Origin: Haematococcus lacustris
Lineage: Eukaryota; Chlorophyta; Chlorophyceae; Chlamydomonadales; Haematococcaceae
Reading direction: 5' to 3'
DNA: 64,000 nt
NCBI GenBank assembly: GCA_030144725.1
Contig: JASKMD010000017.1
Coordinates: forward strand, 2,004,231 to 2,068,230
Shown here: positions 5,061-22,857 of the stretch, in pieces
How the letters are laid out: every line of letters starts with the position of its first letter
Position numbering within the stretch: position 1 is the stretch's first letter
Translations under genes and position numbers: made by a program
Notes under the pieces: generated by a model
The model's database searches: none
What the model was told of the DNA's origin: nothing
Seen by the model: only the letters and a program-made list of their open reading frames with translations

Positions 5061-5339
5061 ATCACGTACAGGCCATCCCAGCATGTAAGACTTGCACCGC
5101 TCGGCTCAGCAAGTTGCCGTTAGCTCCCTGCCGGATGTCCAACCTCGCAGCCCGCCAAGCATCTGCACCAAGTGAAGCCTTGAGAACTGTCCAATCAGCA
5201 GAGTGCGGTGTTATAGACCCCGTGCACATCGCAAAGCTACTAAACGCTGAAGTGCTGACTTGTTTGCCCCTTGCGAGTGCACCGGCCGACGATGCAGGTA
5301 AGAACATTGGCGTCTATTTAAATGCGTAGCTGCGAGAAT

Positions 5340-5960
5340 GAACGCGTTAGGCTCACTAAGCGTGGACCCGACTGCATCCATGCAGGGTTGCTGCAAACCC
5401 GGCCACAGGTCCTGCCAGGGCGACTCCTGAGCTGAAACTACACCTGCAGGCTTGTTATAGCATAAGGTATGCACGGGACTTGCTTGCAGCGCAGTTCACA
5501 CAGTGGGTGCAGAATGGAAGGGAATGTCACTCATCACACACTGTGTGGTGTCAAGGAGCACGGACGTGATATTCATCAACGAAACTGGTAGGGGGTATTA
5601 ATAACGGTCTTAGCAATGCCCTGCCTTGGTTTCAGCTAAAGGTAAAAATGCAGGCAATTACAGCATAGTTATAATCAAAGAATGCAATGCTGTGAGTTAT
5701 GCCATTGCCCTACAACTCAAACGTGCAAAACTTCCTATGTACACTGTGCAGGAACATACCAACGTTCGCACATCCCAACAACGGGTAAGATGTGCAGCTG
5801 GAGGGTGTGCCTTTGCTAAAGGTCTGAGCACCGTTCATCTGTGTTGTTTGTGTCAATTGAGTCGAGTGCATCAAGCAATCCACCAACTGTCCTTGCTGGC
5901 GGACCCTTGCCTACCACGCCCCACAAATGCCTCAGTTGATGTAGGGTTAGCTTAAGCGTG
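5340..5960. repeat. Dispersed transposon-like repeat, inverted relative to 21400-22080
   Basis: The plus strand here and the minus strand at about 21400-22080 share blocks. One reads CCTTGGTTTCAGCTAAAGGT; another encodes MVSAKGKNA followed downstream by LPMYT; a third runs through the HTNVRTSQQRVRCA (here) and HANVPTSLQRARCA (there) segment. Indels and stops interrupt both copies. They are decayed copies of one unidentified element. Confidence 0.55.
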
Positions 5961-6420
5961 TTCTGAGGCAATGGCTGAACCGTGGAACGGTACATGGCCA
6001 TAGCTTGGACTTGTTGTGTTGCCATTCTTGCCCGATTGTTTGCTTGCTCCTTAGCAGCCAATTGTTGCTCCACTGCCGTGGCCCTGCACCGCTGACGTGT
6101 CTCAGTTGACGCAAACCTCATGGTGATGGACAGCTCCGCTGCCGCACGCTTCTGCCTTCTATGTTGCTCTTGTAGCTTGCGCCTATTGCCCGCTTGTGCT
6201 CCAGCCGTGATTGCAAAAGAGGTGGGAGTGGAAATGGTGGCGGGGGCGGGGGCGGGGGTGGGGTGTGGGCTGGGGATGTCAGCACTGTTGGTTACAGCTA
6301 AGAGCGAAGGGCTGGCAGCGGTGCTGATGGCGGTGGCTACAAGCAGGCATGAGGGGGCCTTGGCATCTGCCACGCACCGCCGCTTCGCAGCCCTGTTTGC
6401 TGATGGCGGTGGCTACAACG

Positions 6421-9400
6421 AAGAAGAAGAAGAAGAAGACTACTCCGGTATTCACCGGCGTGCATTAAGGGAGGAGCTACCACCTGGGGCGCGGCCTGCT
6501 CCCACCATCAAACCAAAGAAGAGGCGTCCCCCCTACCCTCCCCCCCCTTTGGTAGCCCTGAGTCTGTAGCTTGTCTTTGCGATAGAGTGGGCTGTCTCCA
6601 TAGCGTGTCTAGTTAACTTGTTAAGCAACTTGGTAGTGTTGGCTTGTGTGATCCCGAGGGCCAAGAGGTGTTGCCGTGTGTGCGCTTCGTAGGTTATGCC
6701 CCCTATGCCTAGTAGGATTGGTATGATAGCGACCATATGGTCTTCCTTGCGTATGGTCTCGGCTAATAGGGTGTGTTGAGTGAGTGCCTTGTTTAATTGG
6801 TCCGTCCACCGTGAGTCCGAGCAGTATTTGATTTCTATGATATTGACCAGCTTGGTGTCTTTGCCGTCCTTGCTTGCCTTCTTATGAGGGAGAACCATGA
6901 GGATATCCGGCCTGGTGGTGTGTTTATTATCTTCTGGTTTCAGTCCGAGTGTTCGGAGTGTTGTGTGTAGCGTGTCGCTCGGGAGGTCCAGGCTTTCCTG
7001 TGCGCCCTTCTCCCAGCTGCCGGTGTCTGCGAAGCTGATGTACCCGCCTAGGGTTCCCTTGCTTATAGCTTTAGTGATGAGGCGGCCCGCCCCGTTGTGC
7101 CTTTCTTGCACCAGCGGTAGTGTCTCGCTACAGCCCGAGAGGAGGTGAGTGGCACTATCCGCTTCCCCGCAGAGTGGGCATCGGTCATCCGTCGCCCGTT
7201 TCCAGCGCATAGCTAGTTTTTGGTTGTATAGCCCTCCGGTGCGGTAGAGTAGGGCAGTGCGTTGCGCGTGGATGGAGATGTTCGTGTCGATCATCGCTCT
7301 TTCGCCCGCTCCTGTTGCTGCGACCTTCTTAATTTCTTGGGACATTTGGTAGTAGATACTGTCTTGGTTGGCAAGGCCCAACTTGTGTTTGCGGTGCATG
7401 TGTGCCCGCACGCTTTGGCGGCAGTCCGGCAGTGGGGCGGGGGGGTCGCCGTCGGCTGCGTTGCTGAGCCAGTTCTTCGTCTCTCTCCGTGTGGTTGGGC
7501 TGTAGGCCGGGGTGTTGGCGAGCTCTGGGTGTAGCGCCGCGTGCTTGGCGAGGGCATCGGCGCCCTCGTTGCCGATGATGCCCGAGTGGGCCTTGACTTT
7601 ATAGAATTGGATTGTCACGGGGCTGCCGATGATAAGGGTAGCGATGGCTGTTAGGATGTCGTTGTGTCTGTGGGTGATGAGCGACATCGGGTTAGCGAGG
7701 GCTCTGCGGATCTGGTATAGGGAGCAAAGGCTGTCGGTGGCGATGCGTTTGGCCCCTGCTTTGAGTGCCGCGTGTATCGCTGTGAGTTCTGCCTTGTTGA
7801 TGGTGTTGCTTTCTGGGTCGTTCAGGGCGGCTGTGATGAGGACGTTGTTCTCCGGGATATAGACCCCCGCCCCGACGCTCGCCGGGGCTGCCCCCGAGGT
7901 CTTTATGCAGCTGCCGTCCGTGTACGCGATCGTGGCCCATTCGGTGATGGCCATCCGTGGCTGCGTCGTGGAATGGTGCGTGGGTTGTTCGTGGCTGCGT
8001 TGGTGCCCCGAGGTGGGGAGGTCCCTGTCCAGCGGCAAGCGCATATGTTGTTTGTGACCGCTAGGGGGTGTGGCTGGCTGGCTTTGATTCGTTGGTCTGT
8101 TGCGGATTGGGTGTGTGTCTCGTTGAGGGTGGAGGGCAGTGGCAGTGCTAGCCAGCCAACCTTGGGGGTTGCCTTTGGTGACGAGTTGTTGTCCTGCTGC
8201 ATTCCAAATGACGTAGATGTGGAGTTTGGCGTGCTTGCCTGGCTTGGGGCATCTGGTCTTGGTGGGGGGTATGCTAGCCAGGTGCTGGCAGTACTCAGGG
8301 TAGCGCCGCAGGGTGTCGATGTGTTTAGGGTAGGAGATGCCCTTTTTCCCAGGGATCAGCATGATGGTTGCCATGGCCTCCTCTTGAGTAGCTGAATGTA
8401 TAGCATGGTTGACGCATTTTAGTGCCACTGCATCATCTGCCGGTACGTTCCATGTGGATAAGCCAGTGTGGCGTACCAGTAGGCAGTTGTGGTGTGCCCC
8501 AAAGGCCGTGTCGTTGGTGTCAGGGCTCCAATAGGTGGTGGTTTCTGGTCTAACTGTGAGTGGATCAGCCCATCTTTGCACGGTGCTTGGAAAGCTTCGT
8601 GTGGTGTGTAGGGTGTTAAGGGCTTTGTCTTGTGCCCCTCTCATGGGGTGGTGGCTGCTCTGTGCGTCCTGTCTCCTTAGGAGGGCCACTACCTCGGTGG
8701 CCAGGTTGCGTGTGTGTGGTGTGTGCTGTAACCAAGCGTGTAGATGTTGGTGTTGGTCTTTTGTCAGGAGGCCAACTGTGCGACCCGACTCGTCGTGGAC
8801 CGTTACGTGTTGCACTAAGTCGTGCCGTGGCATAATGGGCTCTCCCGTGCTGAGGTTCATCGCGGGGGTGGTCATGTGGGGGTGAAGTTGGAGGAAGGTT
8901 TCGCAGTTGCCCGTCCCGACGATGTCCGTCTGCGGGTTGATGGGGTAGGTGTGAAAGGTGGCCTTCGAGTGCAGGTTGGTGCACCGGGGTAGCCAGGTGT
9001 GCGGGTCCGGTAGTCCCTGTCGGGTGTGGGCCGGCAGGTGCGCGTCGGGTCTCGCATGTCTGGCCTCTTGTATCTGCCTGTTTTCCTCGTCGTAGTCGTT
9101 GCGCTTTGCCATGTAGTCCAGGTGTGCCGTGATGAGCGGCGCCGGTTCGAGAGTGGGGTGCCAGTGTACTCGTATGAGGTCCGAGTGCGCTGACTGGCGC
9201 ATGGTTGTCTTAAAGTCATTGCTGCCGAACTTGCATATAGGGCACAGCCAGTATCCTGGTTCCTTGTGTCCTGACAGGTGGGCTTCCTCTAGGCAGGCTG
9301 GGTGGTAGGCCCTCTTGCAGTTGTGGCACGTTGGGCTGTCTCCTCTTGGTAGCCAGCACAGCTCACAAGTGCATACGTCCTTAGCCTCTTCCCTGCTGAT

Positions 9401-12400
9401 GGTCTCTATGTGTGTGGGTGTATAGCCTTCTTCTGCACATAGTGGTAAAGCCCATCTATCTATGACTGTGGGCTTCCAATGCACCTTGTAGTAGTTTTCC
9501 TTGTTGATGCCGTCCCATTGCCAGCCATCTATGCTGGTTATGGCCTCTTGGTGGCCGTACATGGCCCCTAGTATGCAGCCTAGGCTCTTGGGTTTACATC
9601 GGCAGGCTTTATCCACCTTCCAGCTGGAGAGTCCTGGGAGGTCAAGGCCTACTATGCGCACTATATCCTGCGGGATAGTTTGGGTCTGTCTGCCCTCATT
9701 GTTCCGTTTCGTGCCCGCCTTGGGTGGCGTGGGCTTCGTTGGGGCCGATTGTGTTGCTCGTTGCTCTCGTTTCAGCAGTCGTGAGCTCGTCCTAGTGGCG
9801 TCATGGACTGCGGGTGCCGCTGCGGCCCGGTCCGCCGTTGCTGGCCGCCGTGCATGGCCGCCGTGCATGGCCGCATACGCTTTCATATCCATATAGCGAG
9901 TTCTGGTGTCTGGCACTGCGGGTGTGGGCGCAAGTTCCGTGAGGCCCGCGGCCCATGTTGTGATTTTGCGTTGGTCGGGCGGGAGGTCGAGTGATGTGTT
10001 GCGGCTGTCTCGGATGGCACGCGTTGCGGTCGCGTCTGGGCATGAGGGTTGGGCCGCCATGGCTGCAAGTTTGTTGAGGGCGATGATGTGCTTCTGCTTG
10101 ACCTTTTTTCCGTACTTCGATGTGAGCATGCTACCGGTGATGATGTGTGTGTTGTCCTTGCAGCTGAGTTCAGAAGCGTGCGTGATGCCTAGGCTTTTGA
10201 GGCAGGTGATGCTGGCGCTGACGACATCGTGTGCTTGAGAGCTGCTGGCCTGTGTGATGAGGCGGCCGAGTGTTTGGCATTCTTCATGATAGAGAGGTAG
10301 CCCCTCTTCTGTGGCCGATAGCCCGGATATAGAGGCATAGACTAGCTGCCGTGCTCTAAGGGTGTGATGAAGGAGGGTGAGCATGCGGTGTCCTTGTGTG
10401 CTAGCCTGGGTATTGAGCCATGTGATTTGTTTGTGCAGCATGCTCCTCGAGATGTGGGCGTGTGCCACATCTGTGGACTGGAGGCTGTGTGTGAGGGCTG
10501 TCGTGTTGCGGGCGTGGTATTCTTGGGCAGTGGAGCTAATGCCTATGCCTAGTTTGTCAGCGTCTTCTCTAATGATGGCATTGGGCGTTCCCAGGGGGAG
10601 TCTGAGTTTGAGCTTCACGCATTGATTGATGGACCTGTCGTATAGCTCAAGGTCCCCTGGGGTGCAGGGCACGGCGCAGAAGCTGTAGGCTAGGCTGGGT
10701 ATGATGGCCGTGCGGATGATGTGTATGGCCTGCCTAGCGCTAGCAAAGGAGCGTCTGAGTCTCTCGAGTTTTTGGCGGAGCTGGGTGATCATAGCGGTGT
10801 GTTGTGGTTTCCAGTCCAGCGTCATGGTGATGAGCACACCCAAGTAGGTGAAAGGTGAGGTCGGGCGGTGGTAGGTGACGGGTTTCCCTTGTAGGCTGAC
10901 GGTTTGGAGTTGTTGGCGGGCCCGCTTGTCCGCTTCGGCCGCGTTGCTGCACATGCCTGTTTCGACCGAGTGATGGAGCGCCGCGGTTGCGAGGGTTTTA
11001 CTGTGTGAGATGATGAGGTGACCCCAGTCCGAGAAGGCTGAGAGTTTGTCCGCTTGGCATCGAAGGTTGCGAAGGGTGTTGCAGAGTATGGCTATGTCAT
11101 CAGCATAGTCGATGCTGCTGACGGTGGCGCGTTCTCCGCTGTCGGCCGTTGCTGATTTGAATTTATAGCCCCTCGCGCCCACTTGCAGCCATCGCAGGAG
11201 GGGTTCAATGTAAATGAGGAATAGGAAGGGCGAGAGAGAGTCGCCTTGTATGGTGCCCCGGTTGACGGGTACCGGGTCAGTATGGCCGTACGGGGTTTTA
11301 AAGCGCGTTGTAGCGCCCGTGTATAGGTCCTTTACAGCGTCAGTCGCGTCCGTGGGGAAGCCTAGGTCATGCATGATCCAGAGTAGTTTGTCTTGGCACG
11401 TGGTGTTGAACGCACTGGTGAAGTCGACCAGGAGTGCGTAGATATCTGCCTTGGCCAGTTTAGCATCCTCAAGGGCCATGACAAGCATCTGCAGCTGTTG
11501 TGTGGTGTTTCTGTGGGAGCGGAACCCAGCCTGGTTCTTGCTGAGCATCCCATTAGCTTCAGCATACTCAGAGAGCGTCTTGGTAATGAGGCTGGTCCAT
11601 AGCTTATAAACGGTGTTGGCTAGGCCCACAGGTCTGTAGGAGTTAAGGTCCGTTTCTTGCCCTTTGTCCTTGTAGAGGAGGCATGTGTCACTGGTTTTCC
11701 ATGCTGTGGGTGTGCAGCCTGTTGCCCACATGATGATGAAGAGCTGGTGGATGGTTTCCCGCATCTCCCATGGCAGCATCTTGATGATCTCGTTCTCCAC
11801 CCCGTCTGGTCCCGGGGCCTTGCCTCCTGACAGCCTGCTGAGGCATTCCTGGAAGCCGGCCTTGTCCATGATGGCTGTGTGCAGCCATTGTATGTTTTGG
11901 CATGCGTGTAGTGCGAAGGCGTCGTCTGCTTTGGCGCGAGCCCACGGGTAGTTTCGTGTCTGTGTGTTAGTGTAGTGGCCAGTCTTGGGGGTCGGGGCCG
12001 CCAGCTTCTGCCCATATGCGGCGGTGATTATCCGGTTTAGGTCGGCAGGGGCTGTGCATATGTTTTTGGTGTCGGGGTCAGCTAGCGCCTGGAGGCCTTT
12101 GTGGTCGGTGCGGGACGGGCGCAAGATACGTTTGTTAGCCTTCTTGGGCTGGGTGCCTATAAGTTGTTGCATTCTGACGCGAGCTTGTGCGATGGCTAGT
12201 GCGGAGTCATCGTCGTCTAGTTGGTGGATTTGGTCGCGGTACGAGTTGGTCAGCTGGGCGAGCGCGGCCTGCACGTGATTGTCGGTTGGGTCTTCACCCT
12301 GTCGCGCTTGCACCGCGTCCCTGATCTCTTCGTTTATCTCTTCGTTTCTCGCATCTGTCTCTAGAATGAGTTCGTCGATTGTCGGATGTACGTTGGTTTG

Positions 12401-15283
12401 CTTAAAGAGGGAGTTAGCCTTCCGGCTGAGGTCTCTAGCGGTCTTAAGCTTTCTGCCCAGTGCCAGTCTTATCCTGCACATGGTCCTGCGTTGGTAGTGC
12501 TGGCCTCCCCTTGTGAGGGTCTTAGTGTTGCAAGTCTTTATAGCTGCCGTCCTGCAGGTTTGTAGGAGGTGTGTGAGCATGGTGGCTGCGGTGTCTACAG
12601 CTTCTCTGGCCGGGCGTCCTGCCACTGATGTCAGACGTTGTGGTTGTTGAGGGTTGGTCTTGTCAAGTGTGGCCAGGTGGTGGGTAGCCTCTGTGTATAT
12701 GGGGGCTAAGAAGGCTGTCAGTTCTGCATGCAGTTGTGGGACGCCTGAGCTGGGTTGTTGCACTGCCAAGCGGTAGGCTTCCCTGTCCTTATTGGTAATG
12801 GGGGTGGTGAGGATGGTGTGGCTGTGCTTCGGTGGTTTGTGTGGGGCTGCCAGGTTTATGCCCAGGCGGGTTGTATTCAGTGTGGCGTTGAGTGGCCTGT
12901 GGTCGCTCAGATAAGCGTTGGCATCGACGTGCGTGCGGTGCTCAGGTCCGTGTCTTGCGTCGCGTGTTAGAATAGCGTCGATGCGGCTGTTGCAGTGCGG
13001 TTGCTGGTAGGTCCAGGCACGGTCGCCGGGGTCAGCTTCCTTCAGGTGCATTTCCGCGGCGAACCCCCTCATCATGCTGTCTTGTGTGTATTCGGTGTGC
13101 TCGGAGCGATCCTCTGTTTTCATCGTGGCATTGATATCTCCCGCCAGGATGAGTGAGCCGGGCAGGTGGCCCGTGGCTGTTCGTATGTATTCTTGCATTT
13201 TCCCTCGCAGTAGTAGCGCGTCCCCGTTGTTTCCCGACGGCCAATACGTGGCGATGATGGTGAGCTGTTCGCACTGGTGTTGGTTGAGGGTCAGGATGGC
13301 GCATCGTGCGTTCACCTCAGCGTCGATGCTCGGTGGGAGCATAGTGGTTTTCATTTGGATGGCTAAGTTGTGTTTGATGCCTATTAGTACGTCACTGTGG
13401 CCTCTGTGTCGGTGTGTCGTATAGTCTGGCATGACTCTCCTCAGCCAGCCAGAGCCTGGGTTGTTGCTCTTGGGCTGGGTCATGGTCTCAGTTAGGATCA
13501 GGATGTCGGGGCTGTGCTGGTGCACAAGGTTTAGGACGTCGTTCCTGGACCTATGGAGGCTTCTGACGTTTAGGGTCGTCAGTGTGATATGCTGTCGATT
13601 GTGTGTTGGTGGTGGCTGCCGGGTTGGCAGGGTGCTGCGTTGTGGGTGTGGTCCTGGGTGCTCAGGTAGGTTAGCGGTGGGGGGCGGCGATGTTGTGGGG
13701 GTGGCGGCGGGGGGTGGAGTGGGGGTTGTGTTGAGGTATCTGTACATCAGGGTCTGCGTGTGCGAGTCCTTGGGTTGCTCTCTTGGCTTAGTCCGTCTTT
13801 TGTCTACGATGGTGCCCGATGACGTGGGCCGTTTACTGCTGCCTGACCGGTCTTGTTGTGTGGGGAGAGTGACGGTGGGGGCGACCTGACGCAGTCGCGG
13901 CCGGGCCTGCTTGTCTGTCGGGTGGGTGATTTCTGTGGCTGTTAGAGTGCGCTTGTAACTCGCTGGTTGTGTAGTGGCGTTGTTGGGTAGCGGCCGGTCT
14001 ATTCGGGGGTTTTGTGCGGGTTGCGTGTCCAAGTCTTGGGTAGTAAGGTCGATGTGGATGGTACGTAAGTGTTGTTCCAGCTGCTCCGTTGTGGCGCGCC
14101 TTGTGGGGTCGGCTAGCCAGCATAGTGGGTGGATGAGGCTGGTACCAGCCGCGTCGCCCTTTTTAATTTGAACGAGTGTACCCTTCAGCTGAAGCCAGTC
14201 TTCCGGGGTGTCCAGCCGCGTGGGGCGGCCCCGTTCCGAGTCCAGCCATTGCCATGCGTTGTCGATGTGGCGGATGGTGGTGGCATGATTGTGATTGATG
14301 AGGATGGCGGCTGTGCTGGTGTAGCTGTCTGTCTTGCCAGTGAGCGTAGTGAGGAGCTCGGGTGTGATGTTGTTGTTGGTGGTGATGGAGGTGGAAGGGC
14401 ATAGGTGAAGGTCCTTGTGGTGATGGTATAGGTAGTGATTTATGGTGGAGATGGTGAAGTTGCCAGATTCCTCATAGATGTGTGGGAGGCGGTTACGTAG
14501 TGGTATCAGCCTTTGCTCCTGCCTTGCCTGATTGGCTAGCTCCTGGATGTGTGTATCAAGTGCTTTGCAGTGTGTGATAACGTCCTCAGGCCTGATCATT
14601 GGGTTCCCCATGGCCATGTTGAGGGCGTGCACTAGGCAGCATTGTTTGTATTGCGTTTCCATGTAGCAGTGGGGCGGGGTCTGGTTGTCTTCCTTGTGGC
14701 TGATGATGTGGCGAATACCTTGTCGGCTGGTGGCCGTGATCTGGGCTGGCGTGGCTGCTGGGTCTGGTGCTATGGCGAACACCTCGTGGAGGTGATTCAT
14801 GCGGGAAGGCGGTAGTTCGCGGATGGCTATAGCTGATCTCGTGGGAGCGTCCGAGTCAAGGAGCTTCCACTGCCCGCCCAACTTCCTGAGCGCCATGCTG
14901 TGACCGTTCGTTTTGCATAGAAAGTTAAGCGTGGCGTATTCTATTGCCAATGAGTCGAGGTTGTCAACGTCCCAATCGTTTGTGGTGCGTAGTTGAGCAA
15001 CGCTCTTGATCGTGAGGCCGTATTTGGTCCTGAGGTAGAGGTGAATGACTTCATCGCTAAGAGCGCCCCCATTTCCGCGTGCAAGTATCCACGCCTTTTT
15101 ATCGCCTTCATCTTGTAGTCCATCCTGCCAGGTTGTCCAAAATTGATGCAAGTCCTCTGGTTTCACCCATTGTGTGCCAGCTGCATTGTTTAGGGAGTGG
15201 GACTGGCAGTTCCGGTGTACTTCACTCCGGGTAATTAAGGCCGAATCGGCAATTTCCGCTGAGGTATACCGCGGATAGCCCAT
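6421..15283 (-). mobile_element. Dualen/RandI-like LINE (non-LTR retrotransposon), apparently full coding length
   Basis: The element runs on the minus strand. Its coding region ends at 6533, and about 110 nt of 3' UTR (6532-6421) finishes in a CTT-repeat tail. A 5'-truncated copy of this 3' end, with target-site duplication, lies at 32892-33018 and supports the 3' boundary. The 5' boundary is uncertain. An array of GACCCTGCGGAGGGTC hairpin units (15411-15940) sits just upstream of the ORF and may be its 5' UTR. The combination of APE and C-terminal PD-(D/E)XK endonucleases in one ORF matches the dual-endonuclease LINEs described from Chlamydomonas. Confidence 0.85.
6533..15283 (-). CDS. LINE polyprotein: 2 cysteine proteases, APE endonuclease, RT, PHD finger, RNase H, RLE-type endonuclease
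   Basis: One uninterrupted 2916-residue ORF. Domains in order: Josephin-like cysteine-protease domains at about 20-175 (C26, H128, D143) and 208-378 (C215/C216, H333, D348); a Pro/Thr-rich linker at 400-560; APE endonuclease at 566-805 (N572, E599, D716/N718, SRID 766-769, SDH 793-795); reverse transcriptase at about 1145-1560 (GGKAPGPDG, D1287, RGTIQGDSLSPF, YADD 1393-1396); PHD finger at 1973-2017 with C4HC3 spacing; an unassigned domain at 2238-2360; RNase H at 2449-2595 (D2456, E2499, D2517, D2576); CCHC knuckle (C2702, C2705, H2713, C2718) and PD-(D/E)XK nuclease (D2793, E2817, K2819). All catalytic residues I can identify are present and there is no frameshift, so the copy may be young and competent. 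ATG at 15283 is the first start in frame; no separate ORF1 is seen. Confidence 0.9.
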   Translation of the reverse strand: MGYPRYTSAEIADSALITRSEVHRNCQSHSLNNAAGTQWVKPEDLHQFWTTWQDGLQDEGDKKAWILARGNGGALSDEVIHLYLRTKYGLTIKSVAQLRTTNDWDVDNLDSLAIEYATLNFLCKTNGHSMALRKLGGQWKLLDSDAPTRSAIAIRELPPSRMNHLHEVFAIAPDPAATPAQITATSRQGIRHIISHKEDNQTPPHCYMETQYKQCCLVHALNMAMGNPMIRPEDVITHCKALDTHIQELANQARQEQRLIPLRNRLPHIYEESGNFTISTINHYLYHHHKDLHLCPSTSITTNNNITPELLTTLTGKTDSYTSTAAILINHNHATTIRHIDNAWQWLDSERGRPTRLDTPEDWLQLKGTLVQIKKGDAAGTSLIHPLCWLADPTRRATTEQLEQHLRTIHIDLTTQDLDTQPAQNPRIDRPLPNNATTQPASYKRTLTATEITHPTDKQARPRLRQVAPTVTLPTQQDRSGSSKRPTSSGTIVDKRRTKPREQPKDSHTQTLMYRYLNTTPTPPPAATPTTSPPPTANLPEHPGPHPQRSTLPTRQPPPTHNRQHITLTTLNVRSLHRSRNDVLNLVHQHSPDILILTETMTQPKSNNPGSGWLRRVMPDYTTHRHRGHSDVLIGIKHNLAIQMKTTMLPPSIDAEVNARCAILTLNQHQCEQLTIIATYWPSGNNGDALLLRGKMQEYIRTATGHLPGSLILAGDINATMKTEDRSEHTEYTQDSMMRGFAAEMHLKEADPGDRAWTYQQPHCNSRIDAILTRDARHGPEHRTHVDANAYLSDHRPLNATLNTTRLGINLAAPHKPPKHSHTILTTPITNKDREAYRLAVQQPSSGVPQLHAELTAFLAPIYTEATHHLATLDKTNPQQPQRLTSVAGRPAREAVDTAATMLTHLLQTCRTAAIKTCNTKTLTRGGQHYQRRTMCRIRLALGRKLKTARDLSRKANSLFKQTNVHPTIDELILETDARNEEINEEIRDAVQARQGEDPTDNHVQAALAQLTNSYRDQIHQLDDDDSALAIAQARVRMQQLIGTQPKKANKRILRPSRTDHKGLQALADPDTKNICTAPADLNRIITAAYGQKLAAPTPKTGHYTNTQTRNYPWARAKADDAFALHACQNIQWLHTAIMDKAGFQECLSRLSGGKAPGPDGVENEIIKMLPWEMRETIHQLFIIMWATGCTPTAWKTSDTCLLYKDKGQETDLNSYRPVGLANTVYKLWTSLITKTLSEYAEANGMLSKNQAGFRSHRNTTQQLQMLVMALEDAKLAKADIYALLVDFTSAFNTTCQDKLLWIMHDLGFPTDATDAVKDLYTGATTRFKTPYGHTDPVPVNRGTIQGDSLSPFLFLIYIEPLLRWLQVGARGYKFKSATADSGERATVSSIDYADDIAILCNTLRNLRCQADKLSAFSDWGHLIISHSKTLATAALHHSVETGMCSNAAEADKRARQQLQTVSLQGKPVTYHRPTSPFTYLGVLITMTLDWKPQHTAMITQLRQKLERLRRSFASARQAIHIIRTAIIPSLAYSFCAVPCTPGDLELYDRSINQCVKLKLRLPLGTPNAIIREDADKLGIGISSTAQEYHARNTTALTHSLQSTDVAHAHISRSMLHKQITWLNTQASTQGHRMLTLLHHTLRARQLVYASISGLSATEEGLPLYHEECQTLGRLITQASSSQAHDVVSASITCLKSLGITHASELSCKDNTHIITGSMLTSKYGKKVKQKHIIALNKLAAMAAQPSCPDATATRAIRDSRNTSLDLPPDQRKITTWAAGLTELAPTPAVPDTRTRYMDMKAYAAMHGGHARRPATADRAAAAPAVHDATRTSSRLLKREQRATQSAPTKPTPPKAGTKRNNEGRQTQTIPQDIVRIVGLDLPGLSSWKVDKACRCKPKSLGCILGAMYGHQEAITSIDGWQWDGINKENYYKVHWKPTVIDRWALPLCAEEGYTPTHIETISREEAKDVCTCELCWLPRGDSPTCHNCKRAYHPACLEEAHLSGHKEPGYWLCPICKFGSNDFKTTMRQSAHSDLIRVHWHPTLEPAPLITAHLDYMAKRNDYDEENRQIQEARHARPDAHLPAHTRQGLPDPHTWLPRCTNLHSKATFHTYPINPQTDIVGTGNCETFLQLHPHMTTPAMNLSTGEPIMPRHDLVQHVTVHDESGRTVGLLTKDQHQHLHAWLQHTPHTRNLATEVVALLRRQDAQSSHHPMRGAQDKALNTLHTTRSFPSTVQRWADPLTVRPETTTYWSPDTNDTAFGAHHNCLLVRHTGLSTWNVPADDAVALKCVNHAIHSATQEEAMATIMLIPGKKGISYPKHIDTLRRYPEYCQHLASIPPTKTRCPKPGKHAKLHIYVIWNAAGQQLVTKGNPQGWLASTATALHPQRDTHPIRNRPTNQSQPATPPSGHKQHMRLPLDRDLPTSGHQRSHEQPTHHSTTQPRMAITEWATIAYTDGSCIKTSGAAPASVGAGVYIPENNVLITAALNDPESNTINKAELTAIHAALKAGAKRIATDSLCSLYQIRRALANPMSLITHRHNDILTAIATLIIGSPVTIQFYKVKAHSGIIGNEGADALAKHAALHPELANTPAYSPTTRRETKNWLSNAADGDPPAPLPDCRQSVRAHMHRKHKLGLANQDSIYYQMSQEIKKVAATGAGERAMIDTNISIHAQRTALLYRTGGLYNQKLAMRWKRATDDRCPLCGEADSATHLLSGCSETLPLVQERHNGAGRLITKAISKGTLGGYISFADTGSWEKGAQESLDLPSDTLHTTLRTLGLKPEDNKHTTRPDILMVLPHKKASKDGKDTKLVNIIEIKYCSDSRWTDQLNKALTQHTLLAETIRKEDHMVAIIPILLGIGGITYEAHTRQHLLALGITQANTTKLLNKLTRHAMETAHSIAKTSYRLRATKGGGG

Positions 15284-15372
15284 CGCAAGGGGGACCCATC
15301 GCCGTCAATAACTCCGTAAAACTCGAAGTGGTTGAGCTGTAATCGCGGTTTCAATGACCTGGTCACTAATTC

Positions 15373-15940
15373 TCCGCAGGGTCAGTGTGACCCTCCGCAG
15401 GGTCGGGCCTGACCCTGCGGAGGGTTACCGCTAGGCTCGCTTCCTGGGCATTTCTGACCCTGCGGAGGGTCACCGCTGGCTCATTTCCTAGGCATTTCTG
15501 ACCCTGCGGAGGGTCACCGCTGGCTCATTTCCTAGGCATTCCTGACCCTGCGGAGGGTCACCGCTGGCTCATTTCCTAGGCATTTCCGACCCTGCGGAGG
15601 GTCACAGCCGGCTCATTTCCTAGGCATTCCTGACCCTGCGGAGGGTCACCGCTGGCTCATTTCCTAGGCATTTCCGACCCTGCGGAGGGTCACAGCCGGC
15701 TCATTTCCTAGGCATTCCTGACCCTGCGGAGGGTCACCGCTGGCTCATTTCCTAGGCATTTCCGACCCTGCGGAGGGTCACAGCCGGCTCATTTCCTAGG
15801 CATTCCTGACCCTGCGGAGGGTCACCGCTGGCTCATTTCCTAGGCATTTCCGACCCTGCGGAGGGTCACCGCTGGCTCATTTCCTAGGCATTCCTGACCC
15901 TGCGGAGGGTCACCGCTGGCTCACTTCCTAGGCATTACTT
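15373..15940. repeat. 44-bp tandem array of a hairpin unit (12 copies)
   Basis: Twelve units start with GACCCTGCGGAGGGTC at 15411, 15456, 15500, 15544, 15588, 15632, 15676, 15720, 15764, 15808, 15852 and 15896. The arms GACCCT and AGGGTC pair. After the hairpin, units read either CACCGCTGG or CACAGCCGG, partly alternating, then TCATTTCCTAGGCATT. Two extra hairpins precede the array. The array lies directly upstream (5') of the minus-strand LINE ORF, and the same hairpin recurs at 18590-18920. Confidence 0.9.
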
Positions 15941-17340
15941 GCACATGTCTCAACGTTAACACAACTCGCAACACCTCGCTTAGGCACTACCAAACATACG
16001 TCTCCACGCTCAAACACTTCACAACAACTCGCAAAGATACAGCAAAGTACATGTCATCACGTTGAAACACCTTGTACAACCTCGACACACCTCCGCAAAA
16101 CACATGTCTCGACATCCAAACACCCCGCAACACCTCACTACGCTACTCCTTAGCACATGTCTCGATGCACCATCACCCCGCGGCACCTCCCTACAGAAAT
16201 GCCAAGCAAATGCATTGATGCACTACCGCCTTGCAACACCTTCATATAAGGTGACAAGTGACAACAACACCACACCAACAATAACACCACCACCACCACC
16301 ACCACCACCTTGGGCATGGCATGACTAGAGTAGGCTGGCTGCTACTACTTGCGTGCGCTCCATGCTGCCCGCCCAAGGCTGGCCTTTAGGGAGGGGGGAA
16401 GTAGACGGGGTGGCGGACTGGGAGGTGGTGTGTGGTGGGACAGGAGAGGGAAGGAGGAAGGGGCCGAAAGGCAGGAGGGTTACCGTCAAACCTTCAACAA
16501 CAAGGAGTGGGCTGGCGGTTACTGCCCCATAGCACCCAACTCCTGGCTGCTGGGCCATGCTTGCTATGGGCTAACACCTCTAATCGGGCTGGGCTGGGCT
16601 GGGCTGGGCTGGGCTGGGCTGGGCTGGGCTGGGCTGGGCTAAAGGGGGGGAGGGGGCTGCCCGCTCCAGGCTGCTCGCTCCAGGTTGCCCGTTCCAGGCT
16701 GCTACGCCAAGGGCTGCAAGGTGGGGTAGGGAAGGTGAGACGGGGGAGGGAAGGCTGCAAGGTGAGACGGGGGAGGGAAGGGGGAAGGGGCAAGGGGCCA
16801 TCAGCAAGAGTTCGACAATCAGACCTGCAGCCAACAAGAGGCAACCTTGCACTTAGGCTGGGCATTGGCGACCACTCATGTGCAGGGGCTGGCGACTTAC
16901 ACTATTGCTCCATGTCATGCCTTGCTGACTCCATGCTGGCTCTATGTTTAAAGTAGTCCTTGCTACACCTGTCATGCACCAGCTGTCGACATATGCACGC
17001 AAACATGTGCTAGCAAGCTGATGAACATAAACATGCATGACCAGGGCAGGCTAGGCTGACACCACCAAAGCACGTGCACTCACCGGAAGTCGCCTCTTAG
17101 CTGCTGCTCTTAGCTGCTGCTCTTGGCAGCTGCTCATGGCTGCAGCCCTAAGCTACTTATGCACACCTGCTCATCGCAAGTGCTCAACACCAAGACAAGG
17201 GACAGGGAGTGAGGGGTGGGACAGGGAGGGGAGGGGAGGGGAGGGGAGGCGTTTGTAAGAAAGGGGATGGGTGTGACCATGAAACCCTGCAGCAAAGAAG
17301 GGCATGCTAGTGGTCAGGCTAGGCACATGGAGCAACACAA
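15941..17340. repeat. Non-coding repeat related to the inside of the 34387-36320 element; includes (GGGCT)n
   Basis: AC-rich stretches with repeated ACATGTCTCGA and CAACACCTC phrases are followed by (GGGCT)n at about 16575-16640. Then comes CTCCATGTCATGCCTTGCTG at about 16909, which recurs at about 35542 inside the GGTCACCCC element. The order (AC-rich, GGGCT array, this phrase) is the same in both places, so this is probably a related non-autonomous element. No terminal repeats were located here, and no gene was found. Confidence 0.5.
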
Positions 17341-17463
17341 TTGCCACGGCAAGCCACTCACCATTTGCTAGAGAGGAGTGTATGGAGGGAAATGGGGTTT
17401 GGGGCAGGGGTTAGGGAGGGTGCCACTCATGGCTGCCATTCGTTGCGTTGCGTTGTACTGGGC

Positions 17464-17709
17464 AGGGGAGGGAGGGAGGGAGGGAGGGAGGGAGGGAGGG
17501 AGGGAGGGAGGGAGGGAGGGAGGGAGGGAGGGAGGGAGGGAGGGAGGGAGGGAGGGAGGGAGGGAGGGAGGGAGGGAGGGAGGGAGGGAGGGAGGGAGGG
17601 AGGGAGGGAGGGAGGGAGGGAGGGAGGGAGGGAGGGAGGGAGGGAGGGAGGGAGGGAGGGAGGGAGGGAGGGAGGGAGGGAGGGAGGGAGGGAGGGAGGG
17701 AGGGAGGGA
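17464..17709. repeat. (GGGA)n microsatellite, about 245 bp
   Basis: About 61 uninterrupted GGGA units on the plus strand. They create long meaningless Gly-Arg-Glu and Pro-Ser-Leu frames in all phases. The array is purine-only on one strand and could form triplex or G-quadruplex structures. Confidence 0.97.
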
Positions 17710-17999
17710 AGGTCCCTCAGACCTGCAGCAAACTCCGCTAGACCTGCAGCAAACACAGGACATGCTAGCTGGCAAGGCTGTGTAGGCTAAGTAATGAGGG
17801 CCACTGAGGGAGGGAAGGCGGCCACTCACCACTTGCTCCATGCTTCGGCTCACCTCCATGCTCCATCCTCATTGGCTTGTACCTTGGTCTTACCTTTGTA
17901 GTGGGACAAGCTGCAATGGGGAGGGTACGTGGTGGTGAAAGTGGGGGACGGAGGGGATGTGTAGGAGGACCTGCGGCAAGAGGGTGACATGTTGTAAGT

Positions 18000-18480
18000 C
18001 AGTCAGTGCGATTGCGAGGTGTTGCGTTGCGTTGCATTGCAGTGCACTGCGAGGTGTTGCGTTGCGTTAAATGTGCGTTGCGAAATTGCGTTGCGTTGAG
18101 TTGTACTGCGTTGCGATCTTGAGGCTGGCTGCTACGTCTGCGAGGCCTGAGGGCCGCTAGCTGCATGCGAGGGTGGCTGCGAAGTACTGTGCTACGTGGC
18201 TGCAAACTTGGCTGGGAGGTTGGCCGCTATGGAACGTGGCTGCAATGTGGCTGCCTGGCTGCGATGTGTCAAGCGAGAGTGGCTGCCTGGCTGCGATGTT
18301 ATCTGCAGGAAAAGGTTGGCTGCATAGCTTGGTTCCTGGCTGCTCCTGGCTGCTAATGCCAGCTTGACGGGGCAACCTGATTTCCTTCGCGGTTCCTTCG
18401 CTTCCTTCGCGGTTCCTTTGCGAAACCTCCATGCCAGCCTCCATGCAACATAATGTTTTATATGCAACATGATGGTCCAG
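18000..18480. other. Low-complexity intergenic DNA; no gene seen
   Basis: Degenerate GTTGCGTTGCG and GGCTGC runs. The GAGGTGTTGCG phrases are the reverse complement of the CGCAACACCTC phrases near 15970-16140. Nothing coding is supported. Confidence 0.5.
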
Positions 18481-19199
18481 CAACTCCCCAACGACTGAGA
18501 TTTACACTTCGGCCCGAGAGAGACATGTACTCCTCAATATTACAGCAGCCTACATACCTAGTTTCAGACCTGAAATCGTGAGCCACAGGTGACCCTCCGC
18601 AGGGTCAGGATTGCCTAGGTCGTGAGCCACAGTTGACCCTGCGGAGGGTCAGGAATGCCTAGGAAAGTGAGGCAACGGTGACCCTGCGGAGGGCCACAAA
18701 AACCTGCGGAGGGTCACGTCTGACCCTCCGCAGGGTCAGGTCACCCGCCCTTGGGGCAAGAGGAGTACTTGACCCTGCGGAGGGTCACAAAACCCTGCGG
18801 AGGGTCACGTCTGACCCTGCGGAGGGTCACAAAACCCTGCGGAGGGTCACGCCTGACCCTGCGGAGGGTCAAGTCACCCCCACTTCGGCCAAGAGGGGTA
18901 CTTGACCCTCCGCAGGGTCACCTACAAGGGGCCATAGCTCATCACTGGCTGGGACTTTTTGCATGCCACCTACTAAGTTGGGCAGCTGTAACCATCCTTT
19001 ACAATCGCTCATACTCACATTTCATGAAAGCTTACTTTGATCACTCGGTGCCAACTCCCTTGGCCAAAATCAGGGTCACAGCCCCACACCTGGTCCAGCA
19101 ACTCCCCAACGACTGAGAATTACACTTTGGCCCCAGAGAGTCTTGTACTCCCCTAGGTCACAGCAGCCTACATACCAAGTTTCAGAAGCTGAACTCTCA
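18475..19199. repeat. 110-bp direct repeats bracketing a second hairpin cluster
   Basis: About 18475-18585 and 19089-19199 are diverged direct copies (both contain GGTCCAGCAACTCCCCAACG and, later, CAGCAGCCTACATACC). Between them, 18590-18920 holds about ten GACCCTGCGGAGGGTC or reverse-orientation hairpins, with irregular spacing. The second copy overlaps the truncated end of the 2A-bearing LINE fragment. Confidence 0.7.
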
Positions 19200-20431
19200 A
19201 GTTTTCCAAGCCAGCCAGGCCTTAATTTGCCGGAGTGATATTGTGTTTCAAAGAACAGGGGGTTAGGGTTGGGATGTCGCTCTTCATGGTGAGGTGAGGT
19301 GGGGTTGCCCTGAGGTCGTTGTGTCTCCCAGGGAGAGGGGCCTGGATTGGCTTCGACGTCCCCCGCTGCAAGTAGGAGCCAGGCGATGTGGGCGCTGACG
19401 GTGAATGCAGCGGCCCATGGGGGAGCATCGGCTTTGTGGGTCCACTTCCACTTGGTTTGGTATGTACAATAGGCTTGCAGGGTGGTATTAAAGTGGCTAA
19501 CCGTGTGGGGGCGGTTGTTGTTGGTCCCCTGTGCTAACATGTGATACCTGTTGGCTAGCTTACATAGCGCCTGGGTATTAGCGAACGTGCCGGTTAGGTC
19601 TCGCAGTGGGGTGTAGGCAGTTGTTGAGATAACGGCCCTAAGGCGGGTTAGTATCTTCATGTGCCTTTTTAGGCAGCGGCGTGAGGACTTGGCGCTAATT
19701 GGTGCACCTTGGGTACGGTATGAGTGTGAGATCATGCAGCTACCAGTTATTAGGATTATTGTTATCATGTCCATATGTAGCTGGAGGGTTGCCTCAGGTT
19801 TCGTGGTGTGTGGTGTGAGGGTGGCGTGTGGCAGCGTGTAGCTGTGTTGTGTATGAGTGATGGAGTGATGGGTATGGAGTATGAGGGATGAGTGATGGGT
19901 AGGTGGCATCCACCCTTTTACATGCATCTGTTCTTGTGTACCAGCAAACGTGTGTGTGCTACCAAGTCCTGGTGCTTGTGCTCCGGCATACATGTTTTGT
20001 TGTGCTTGTGCTCCCCTACTGTCTATGTGTGCGAAGTGTGCACTGCATCTTAGAACGCTAGTGTGGCCAGGGTAACTCAGGCGCATGGCATGTTCCATGT
20101 GCATAGGCTGTTGTGTGCTGGTAGCATGACCTCTCGCGATCTGTGTGCCACATGGACTGCACAGCATGGGGACCCCCCGGGGGTGCTGTGGGTACCTTCC
20201 TATACCGGCTGTTCCCATCGGCTGTGGCTGGTGGCTTGTCGTGGGAATACCTCCTCTGAGCTCCCCGTCTAGGCGCTTGGTTGAGCGCTCTCTGGCTCCT
20301 GCGGTCATATGAGTATCAACCTTGTTATGCTTGTTGTGGTGTGTGTGGGTGGCCTGTGGGCGTACTGCTTGGGTACCGTGGCTACAACGTAGGGGGCTCA
20401 TGATCCTTGCCAGAGGTCCCCTCCTGCTCAC
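19200..20431 (-). pseudogene. 5' fragment of a LINE-like element encoding a 2A ribosome-skipping motif
   Basis: The open frame 20431 to 19076 on the minus strand contains WLLLAAGDVEANPGP at residues 351-365. It fits the 2A consensus, with an upstream hydrophobic/Leu stretch and D-V-E-x-N-P-G-P. Translation would skip between the last Gly and Pro (near 19340). About 28 residues later the frame reads FFETQYHSGK, resembling METQYKQCC at the second protease domain of the complete LINE (residues 209-216). Homology then ends at about 19200, where the 110-bp repeat begins. I infer a relative of the complete LINE that keeps a leader, 2A and the first residues of a protease domain. The N-terminal His/Thr-rich part may be non-coding. 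Confidence 0.6.
19337..19360 (-). other. 2A motif DVEANPGP
   Basis: The eight codons of the canonical 2A core lie at residues 358-365 of the frame starting at 20431. They are preceded by AGG-type residues (A-A-G) and a Leu triplet, as in active 2A peptides. Confidence 0.8.
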
Positions 20432-20996: not shown

Positions 20997-21654
20997 TCAG
21001 CTTCTACCACCTTGCGACTTCACGCACACGCAGAGAGGAGGAGAGACGGGGTGTGATGAGGGGCAGCAACTCTGCTGCTGTGGCTGCGGCATCCTCACCC
21101 ATGAGTAGTTCCAGTACGCTGTTGGGCGTGTAGTGTTGCATGAACCCTTTGTTGAGGTCCACGACCACAATGGTAATACCCAAGTGCTGTTCCTGCTGTT
21201 ACGTATGCTAGCCTCCATCTTCACCCGTTGCACACATTTGCAGTGGGCTACAAGGGGAAGGTGCATTGCATCACACCCAGCTCGGAGTGTTTTGTCAACA
21301 AGGGTGGCTGGCCCTAGAGGATCACCGCGCTCATAGCCAAGATGGGCCTGGCCGCTGAAGTTAGAAACATCACGTAGTACTTCCCAGACTGTGTCTCTCC
21401 CATCCTCGTTGGGTGCCATGCACAAAGTAGTCCATGCTTTCCATTTGCCTTGCACGCATGGTGCAGTCGACACCTTGCAGATCACGCAGCGGTCCAACTT
21501 GACCAAAGCGCCCTCCACCTGCACATCTTGCCCTTTGTAGGGATGTGGGAACGTTGGCATGTACCTGCAAAGTGTACATAGGAAGTGTTGCATGTGGGGA
21601 CTTGGTTGAAACTATGCCGGAATTGCTTGCATTTTTACCTTTAGCTGAAACCAA
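20997..21654 (-). pseudogene. Transposon-derived ORF with CxxC pair, family unknown
   Basis: The minus-strand frame 21593-20997 contains YMPTFPHPYKGQDVQVEG, then CVICKVSTAPC, then LGYERGDPLGPATLVDKTLR. A cysteine-rich knuckle and a conserved start are visible but the family is not recognised. An adjacent frame (21654-21370) starts MVSAKGKNA, as does the repeat copy at 5626, so the sequence is multicopy. Probable splice sites were not resolved. It lies head-to-head with the hAT fragment at 22.2 kb. Confidence 0.4.
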
Positions 21655-22247
21655 GGCACAGCACTACTGTGACCATTGTCGACACCCCTTATCAGTCTCA
21701 TAGCTTATTTTTACGTCCGTGCCCCTTAGCACCACACAGTGTGTGATGTGATGTGATCCCCTGCCACTGTGCACTCGCTGCATGCATGATGGTCCAGCCA
21801 ATTCTATTGCGTACCTTATGCACAAACGAGCTTGAAGGTGTAGTTTCAGCCCAGATGTCGCCCTGGCTGGACCGGGGGCGGGTTTGCAGCACCCCTGCAT
21901 GGTCGCAGACGGGTCCACGGTTAGTGAGCCACACGCGCTCATTGTTGCAGCTATGCAACGGAGCAAGTGCGAGTTGTTCTTACTCACAGCTAACCCAGCA
22001 GGACGGCCGACGACATGTGTTCGGGAAAAGTTTGCGACTCGGGCAGCGAGCGGTACGGGGCTGTACACAGCAATTTCGGCCTTGCAGCTATGATCAAAAC
22101 AAGCTTGGCATTAAGGTGTCGACTTTGGTGGGCGCAAGGAACAACCGGGGGACAGCCCTGACGGGACCTCTACAACGAGCGGGTGCAAAAATCGCGGCAC
22201 GAGGTGGCCTGGTTTGTCCATGCTGGCCCATTTGTATATTTTCTCAG

Positions 22248-22857
22248 GTGTGTCACAGCTGACCACCACCAGGAGAGGAGTGCTGAGGATCTGGCCGCTC
22301 GCCTTGCAAGCTCAAATGGTCAAGGAGACGACTCAGCAGCTGCTCAGGTGAGACCTCCTCCCCTCCATCAAAGCATCAGTTATCACACTATCCTGATGAT
22401 CACACACTGCACATCAGCTCCACACTGCATCACACACTTGTTTTTGTTTTTTGGTTGCCAGGCGCGAGACGAGTTCCACACCTGGTGCAGTGATGGCTAC
22501 ATGGTGAAGATGAATCTGAGCCCAAGCATCTTTCACCCACGCCTGCTGCGTGACCCAGTCACTTGGTGGGAGTGGTATGGCAAGAAGACCCCTGTGCTAC
22601 AACAGGTGGCACAACGGGTGCTTAGCATTCCTGCCACATCGGCTGGTGTGGAGCGCCTCTTCTCAGTTTTCAAGTTCATCTGGAGCGATCGCCGCAACCG
22701 TCTGCTCATGGGCCGCATGTGGGCAATGGCCTATGTGTACTTCAACACTCGGGCCTTGCGGCACCTAGAGGAGCCCATGGCAGATGATGCTGCTGATGTG
22801 GCGCGCTGGGAGGAGTGGATGGCCAGCCAGCCTGTGGAGGGTGCACCCCTTTTGTAG
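22248..22857 (+). pseudogene. hAT transposase, C-terminal dimerisation region (two exons)
   Basis: Two exons join in phase 0: about 22248-22347 and 22462-22857 (stop TAG). The second encodes the classic hAT-C signature: W-W-x-W-Y followed by PVLQQVAQRVLSIPATSAGV, ERLFS, a basic segment, then a terminal FNTRAL. The tail is acidic (DDAADVARWEEWM). Upstream transposase domains (BED finger, RNase H-like core) are not joined here; the preceding sequence belongs to another repeat. The intron contains a T-rich tract before its CAG acceptor. It is therefore a fragment, or the 3' end of a rearranged element. Confidence 0.75.

Follow-up and report, generated by a model that had tools for sequence, protein, structure and literature searches.

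A Dualen/RandI-type retrotransposon with Josephin and CAPAM-like domains, very probably split by a nested insertion, in Haematococcus lacustris

Introduction

The only endonuclease known from R2 retrotransposons is a restriction-like endonuclease (RLE), and no R2 element is known to have an apurinic/apyrimidinic endonuclease (APE), an RNase H or a domain of the Josephin, PHD or CAPAM-like kind. According to excerpts of the sources cited here, Dualen elements encode both APE and RLE (PMC4640811), occur in relatives of Chlamydomonas (PMC8226300), have expanded in cryptophytes (PMC12747079) and have been cited as evidence that APE-type long interspersed nuclear elements (LINEs) arose from RLE-type ones (PMC4640811). 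Nematode NeSL/Utopia elements carry Ulp1-like proteases (PMC4640811), and all eight of the eight green-algal RandI families have a non-A microsatellite at their 3′ end (PMC3747384). Here we analyse a 64,000-nucleotide stretch of Haematococcus lacustris contig JASKMD010000017.1 (positions 2,004,231 to 2,068,230; assembly GCA_030144725.1), hereafter the window, in which a very long open reading frame (ORF), P0001, encodes two endonucleases, a reverse transcriptase (RT) and several accessory domains. It very probably belongs to one copy of a multi-copy Dualen/RandI-type non-long-terminal-repeat retrotransposon of a Haematococcus-like green alga, broken when an element with terminal inverted repeats (TIRs) inserted into it.

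Interruption of the coding sequence

As the initial annotation had described, positions 6533-15283 hold a single 2916-codon frame without interruption; it lies on the minus strand, which that annotation had left unstated. Residues 10-2916 of P0001 align with the protein P0002 in one BLAST alignment (93%), bearing out the absence of frameshifts. The description of the copy as intact and complete did not hold, since native coding sequence goes on upstream of a 4,020-bp TIR-flanked insert (Table 1). This upstream part lies in a separate ORF, P0114 (20431-19076), whose shared sequence stops at ...PNPNPLFFETQ (19241) and is resumed by the main ORF at VHRNCQSHSLNN (15220). Once the 4,020 bp are removed, the N-terminal part with its 2A-like motif and the main ORF join exactly in frame; the cut-off region spans 19241 to about 19830 at least. 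Because native sequence resumes at 15220, with the insert upstream of it, the first 21 residues of P0001 and its ATG at 15283, which fall inside the 4,020 bp, are insert sequence.

The insert ends in 21-bp TIRs that agree at 19 of 21 positions, with a local score of 32, a value never above 26 when the end sequences were shuffled 500 times. A search pattern derived from these two ends themselves, allowing up to three mismatches, hit two sites in the 64-kb window, both of them the insert ends, and none in 100 shuffles. A 2-bp AA target duplication is possible. Pfam detected no transposase in the two longest ORFs of the insert itself, six further ORFs of at least 100 residues being left unscanned. 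The insert also contains 44-bp tandem units and related palindromic repeats near both ends (15409-15936 and 18576-18921, in opposite orientation), 96-bp repeats (18473-18568 and 19091-19186) and a CCCT run; a (GGGA)61 array stands at 17466-17709.

Comparison with relatives bears directly on whether the frame from ATG15283 could instead be a native, intact and possibly active protein, with the upstream 44-bp tandem repeats as its 5′ untranslated region or promoter. The 2916 open codons, the presence of the checked motifs and the position of the tandem repeats directly upstream of the ORF agree with such an intact protein. Yet 38 of 39 relatives pass from the 2A segment directly into VHRN/CQSH-like sequence without a break, the first 21 residues of P0001 appear in none of the 39 printed relatives, and the join across the TIR-flanked 4,020 bp is perfectly in frame. 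We regard an intact protein as very unlikely, and the intact-copy reading was rejected on the relatives' uninterrupted 2A-Josephin-1 sequence, the in-frame join and the TIRs. The sequences of the relatives come from annotated gene models, in which introns may occur, so the 4,020 bp might be intronic, either in the element itself or in a host gene. This is slightly more improbable still: 21-bp TIRs stand at the ends of the segment, and an intron was rejected because GT-AG ends are missing at the frame-restoring junction. We give equally little credence to a 2A segment derived from a separate neighbouring Dualen copy next to a 5′-truncated main ORF; Dualen copies are abundant in Haematococcus, but the two parts meet at an exact codon with neither gap nor overlap, as would rarely happen by chance.

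Taken jointly with its identity as a multi-copy Dualen/RandI-type LINE, it is thus highly probable that the native copy was broken by a TIR element that jumped in where Josephin-1 begins, immediately behind the 2A segment, although the downstream ORF is still open. The suggestion that this copy could be active fails, since the insert parts the 2A/N-terminal region from Josephin-1 and trims the start of that domain. The split copy is a warning against calling an element intact on the strength of a long open frame alone.

Table 1. Features of the split element and its insert in the window (res, residues of P0001)
Feature	Position	Strand	Basis or remark
2916-codon ORF (P0001)	6533..15283	minus	ORF list and translation
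Native coding sequence of the element inside P0001	6533-15220	minus	codons 1-21 insert-derived
(CTT)n run, candidate 3′ end/tail	6419..6438	minus	weak
Zinc knuckle and RLE (res 2637-2915)	6539..7375	minus	structure-supported
RNase H (res 2451-2583)	7535..7933	minus	PF00075, E 6e-16
PCIF1/CAPAM-like cap-adenosine methyltransferase fold (res 2125-2385)	8129..8911	minus	fold match
PHD-type zinc finger (res 1973-2017)	9233..9367	minus	Pfam 0.023; backed by relatives and family profile
RT (res 1213-1483)	10835..11647	minus	Pfam 1.9e-25; YADD 1393-1396
APE (res 570-795)	12899..13576	minus	PF03372, E 1.2e-10
Josephin-2, deubiquitinase-type cysteine protease (res 211-359)	14207..14653	minus	Pfam E 7.7e-14 and 3e-12
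Josephin-1 (res 26-153)	14825..15208	minus	Pfam E 0.001, below cut-off; first residues FFETQ lost to insert
Nested insertion, 4,020 bp, putative TIR transposon	15221..19240		splits element between ...FFETQ and VHRNCQSH...
Insert TIR TCACTCCGGGTAATTAAGGCC	15222..15242	plus	inverted-repeat partner of 19218..19238
Insert TIR TCACTCCGGCAAATTAAGGCC	19218..19238	minus	19/21 match to other end
2A-like ribosome-skipping peptide WLLLAAGDVEANPGP	19337..19381	minus	motif as in PMC4981915 (excerpt)
N-terminal coding region upstream of insert, conserved part	19241..19830	minus	frame P0114 open to 20431; comparison with relatives

Endonucleases and reverse transcriptase phylogeny

APE, RT and RNase H, all claimed initially, gave Pfam matches above the cut-offs, and the APE match lies within the interval proposed for it (566-805). 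The catalytic residues had likewise been said to be present, and every APE, RT and RNase H motif checked was found; those of APE are N572, E599, GDIN at 715-718, RID at 767-769 and SDH at 793-795. The APE stands upstream of the RT, and its family profile matches LINE endonuclease chains. The claimed PD-(D/E)XK endonuclease corresponds to the structure-backed RLE, with the zinc knuckle residues C2702, C2705, H2713 and C2718 and the motif residues P2792-D2793 and E2817-x-K2819, giving the element the C-terminal RLE of Dualen/RandI. With both endonucleases passing profile and/or fold tests, and an RT outside R2 and L1, the identification as a dual-endonuclease LINE stands. A 24-residue tblastn match to P0053, a gene model of another copy, ends at 6438, a weak indication of the 3′ end.

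RTs were compared in an unrooted maximum-likelihood tree of 37 sequences without outgroup. The 29 Dualen-like RTs separated from eight others (P0120, three R2, human L1 and three other metagenomic LINE RTs) with an ultrafast bootstrap value of 89. The R2, L1 and three metagenomic RTs clustered at 97 with P0120 outside, and several deeper branches inside the Dualen-like group were weak (38-65). This topology supports the placement of the RT in a separate group of like elements, whose name it does not prove, since no labelled Dualen, from Chlamydomonas included, was in the tree.

Relatives and ground plan

A full-length search with the 2916 residues (7,988 candidates scored) returned 112 proteins, 93 from Haematococcus lacustris and 19 others, mostly metagenomic; RT identity to Haematococcus proteins reached 99% among the best 120 of 218 matches. 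A domesticated host gene, which so large a multi-domain protein might bring to mind, is the least credible alternative, with 93 Haematococcus homologues at widely differing identity, many of them in fusion models with domains of other transposons. Seven proteins were added by a second profile search, with alignment A6. Four of these (P0120-P0123, other LINE types) served as other LINE RTs in the tree, P0121 also as a PDB query, and the domain survey did not include them. Among viral contigs, the profile search with the same alignment found no relative. The survey covered 64 relatives not labelled Haematococcus: 19 from the full-length search, three from the second profile search and 42 from a further search (best 120 of 218).

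With local profiles, at thresholds of E ≤0.01 for the CAPAM-like domain and RLE and E ≤0.001 for Josephin, these domains were detected in 61, 57 and 27 of the 64, respectively. The CAPAM-like domain and RLE were both present in 56 of 56 relatives that continue for more than 1200 residues beyond the RT, and Josephin in 27 of 36 with more than 850 residues ahead of it, so that the rich domain set would largely be the ground plan of the group. The set that the initial annotation had singled out as unusual is thus present, though not peculiar to this copy, most of its domains being common to many metagenomic relatives. We infer a ground plan that runs from an N-terminal region through a 2A-like peptide, tandem Josephin domains, APE, RT, PHD, CAPAM-like domain, RNase H and zinc knuckle to RLE. 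At least two Josephin matches occur in six of the 64, where the pairs in P0117 and P0134 may be pieces of one domain; the Dualen-type metagenomic protein P0094 has two Ulp1 matches, two 2A-like motifs and no Josephin match.

Three relatives (L001-L003) come from contigs of bacterial metagenome-assembled genomes labelled Mollicutes and Clostridiales, and their Dualen-type sequence is probably eukaryotic contamination of the bins. Two further Dualen-type proteins, P0149 and P0156, stem from eukaryote transcript collections (eukprot), a hint that elements of this kind are transcribed somewhere. In many hypothetical proteins among the Haematococcus QJQ45 gene models, Dualen sequence is joined to Pfam domains from other transposons; the annotation has apparently fused such transposons into single genes.

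2A-like peptide, Josephin domains and CAPAM-like fold

The predicted ribosome-skipping peptide carries DVEANPGP (19360-19337), in agreement with the 2A consensus D[V/I]ExNPGP. The motif ends 12-35 residues before the catalytic Cys of Josephin-1 in 38 of the 39 database proteins aligning over that domain; it is absent from P0003, the sole exception. It was found in 43 of 116 proteins, namely P0114 of the window, the metagenomic P0094 and 41 Haematococcus proteins from the database, and is also present in P0134 and P0165. Pfam reported nothing above cut-off on P0114, with a sub-threshold uDENN match only.

What had been called two protease-like domains turned out to be two Josephin domains. Josephin-2 unites a profile match, found in all five alignment members, with catalytic Cys, His and Asn-or-Asp, and its family profile aligns around Cys and His to the solved Josephin-2 structure (2.4e-5). 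For Josephin-1, four of five members match (best 1.4e-7) and the family profile aligns around Cys and His to ataxin-3. In this copy its Pfam match starts at profile position 6, with FFETQ beyond the insert, leaving the domain incomplete; in the closest relatives the lost segment bears a Gln five residues before the Cys. Neither Josephin nor PCIF1-like domains were recognised in a LINE in the titles and abstract starts of open-licence literature among the matches listed, and part of this architecture may already have been described. One Josephin match from that literature deals with ataxin-3 retrocopies.

PCIF1/CAPAM, the cap-specific adenosine methyltransferase, has a catalytic NPPF motif, whereas the Dualen-like domain lacks it: P0001 has NVPA at this place, and [NDS]PP[FYW] was found in 0 of the 61 relatives that have the domain. 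The cap-methyltransferase fold is apparently disabled, and to judge from its motif the domain more likely binds capped or 5′-end RNA than methylates it. The PHD family profile matches the PHD of CHD4 (3e-8).

Several points weigh against this account of the element. Josephin-1 is weak both in Pfam (0.001) and in the PDB profile search (E 0.13), and only 20 of 41 Haematococcus proteins retain the Gln before its Cys, so that the loss of this Gln here need not be decisive. The PHD finger named in the initial annotation has a Pfam match that is weak and below cut-off in P0001 alone (0.023). The CAPAM-like model is middling (predicted local distance difference test 72.5, predicted template modelling score 0.60), and the RLE motif is ExG, not ExK, in six of the 64 relatives. 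Since the survey profiles were partly built from surveyed proteins (six for RLE, four for CAPAM and two for Josephin of the 64), the hypothesis enters to some degree into the counts themselves. Domain functions are deduced from fold or motif, and the uninterrupted state from protein predictions that may reflect splicing in the gene models.

Comparison with known systems and proposed mechanism

The element resembles Dualen/RandI in combining APE and RLE (PMC4640811, excerpt) with RNase H, in its green-algal host and possibly in a non-A repeat, (CTT)n, at its 3′ end. It also has tandem Josephin domains, a 2A-like peptide and a CAPAM-like fold, which may set it apart from the Chlamydomonas elements. 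R2 differs in having, as far as is known, the RLE only, where APE is also present here, and the RTs are separated in the tree. With NeSL/Utopia the element shares a ubiquitin-like-protein protease N-terminal to the RT, together with an RLE (PMC4640811); theirs has the Ulp1 fold, with no APE mentioned in the excerpt of that source, whereas Josephin is found here. The D[V/I]ExNPGP motif recurs in L1Tc and sea-urchin LINEs (PMC4981915, excerpt). The 2A LINEs of multicellular organisms are called APE-type in a title which that paper cites, while the element here also has an RLE, and its 2A precedes Josephin-1.

What was observed directly is which domains are present, in what order and how well conserved, and that the element is interrupted. 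From this a mechanism can be proposed by analogy with R2 target-primed reverse transcription, 2A skipping (PMC4981915, excerpt), Josephin deubiquitinases and PHD fingers. During translation the 2A peptide would free the N-terminal protein from the replicase, from which, or from whose surroundings, the Josephin domains would strip ubiquitin. The PHD finger might aid the choice of chromatin. The RT, with RLE and/or APE, would nick the target and prime cDNA on it, as in R2, RNase H would clear the RNA, and the CAPAM-like domain, its catalytic motif lost, would bind capped or 5′-end RNA.

A bolder proposal, which we consider unlikely, is that a disarmed cap-methyltransferase fold and a deubiquitinase are constitutive parts of Dualen-type LINEs. 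By reading the capped 5′ end of the RNA of the element (or the cDNA end), the CAPAM-like domain would license full-length copying and the synthesis of the second strand between two separate nickases, and Josephin, in one relative Ulp1, would shield the replicase from host ubiquitin/SUMO tagging.

Dualen-type elements can thus also encode domains of ubiquitin proteases, a ribosome-skipping peptide and a cap-methyltransferase fold that is apparently disabled. The Ulp1 domains that stand in for Josephin in P0094 suggest that the removal of ubiquitin-like tags may itself be selected. If the protease belongs to the ground plan, it offers a testable part for the question of how the protein of a LINE escapes ubiquitin control by the host; the degenerate cap-methyltransferase fold, if it does, offers one for the recognition of a full-length capped template.

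Surroundings of the element

Just upstream of the element, an ORF on the plus strand (22183-22857) encodes the C-terminal dimerisation domain of a hAT transposase (Pfam 3e-12). The split element lies between two segments about 16 kb apart, 5323-5805 and 21511-21957, which share four collinear inverted matches (72-88%); they could be a further repeat present twice, or else long terminal arms. Elsewhere in the window stand a 28-bp array of 22 copies (54540-55158) and, at 47522-49352, a 1.8-kb (CCCCG)n array with 366 copies and a 100% match.
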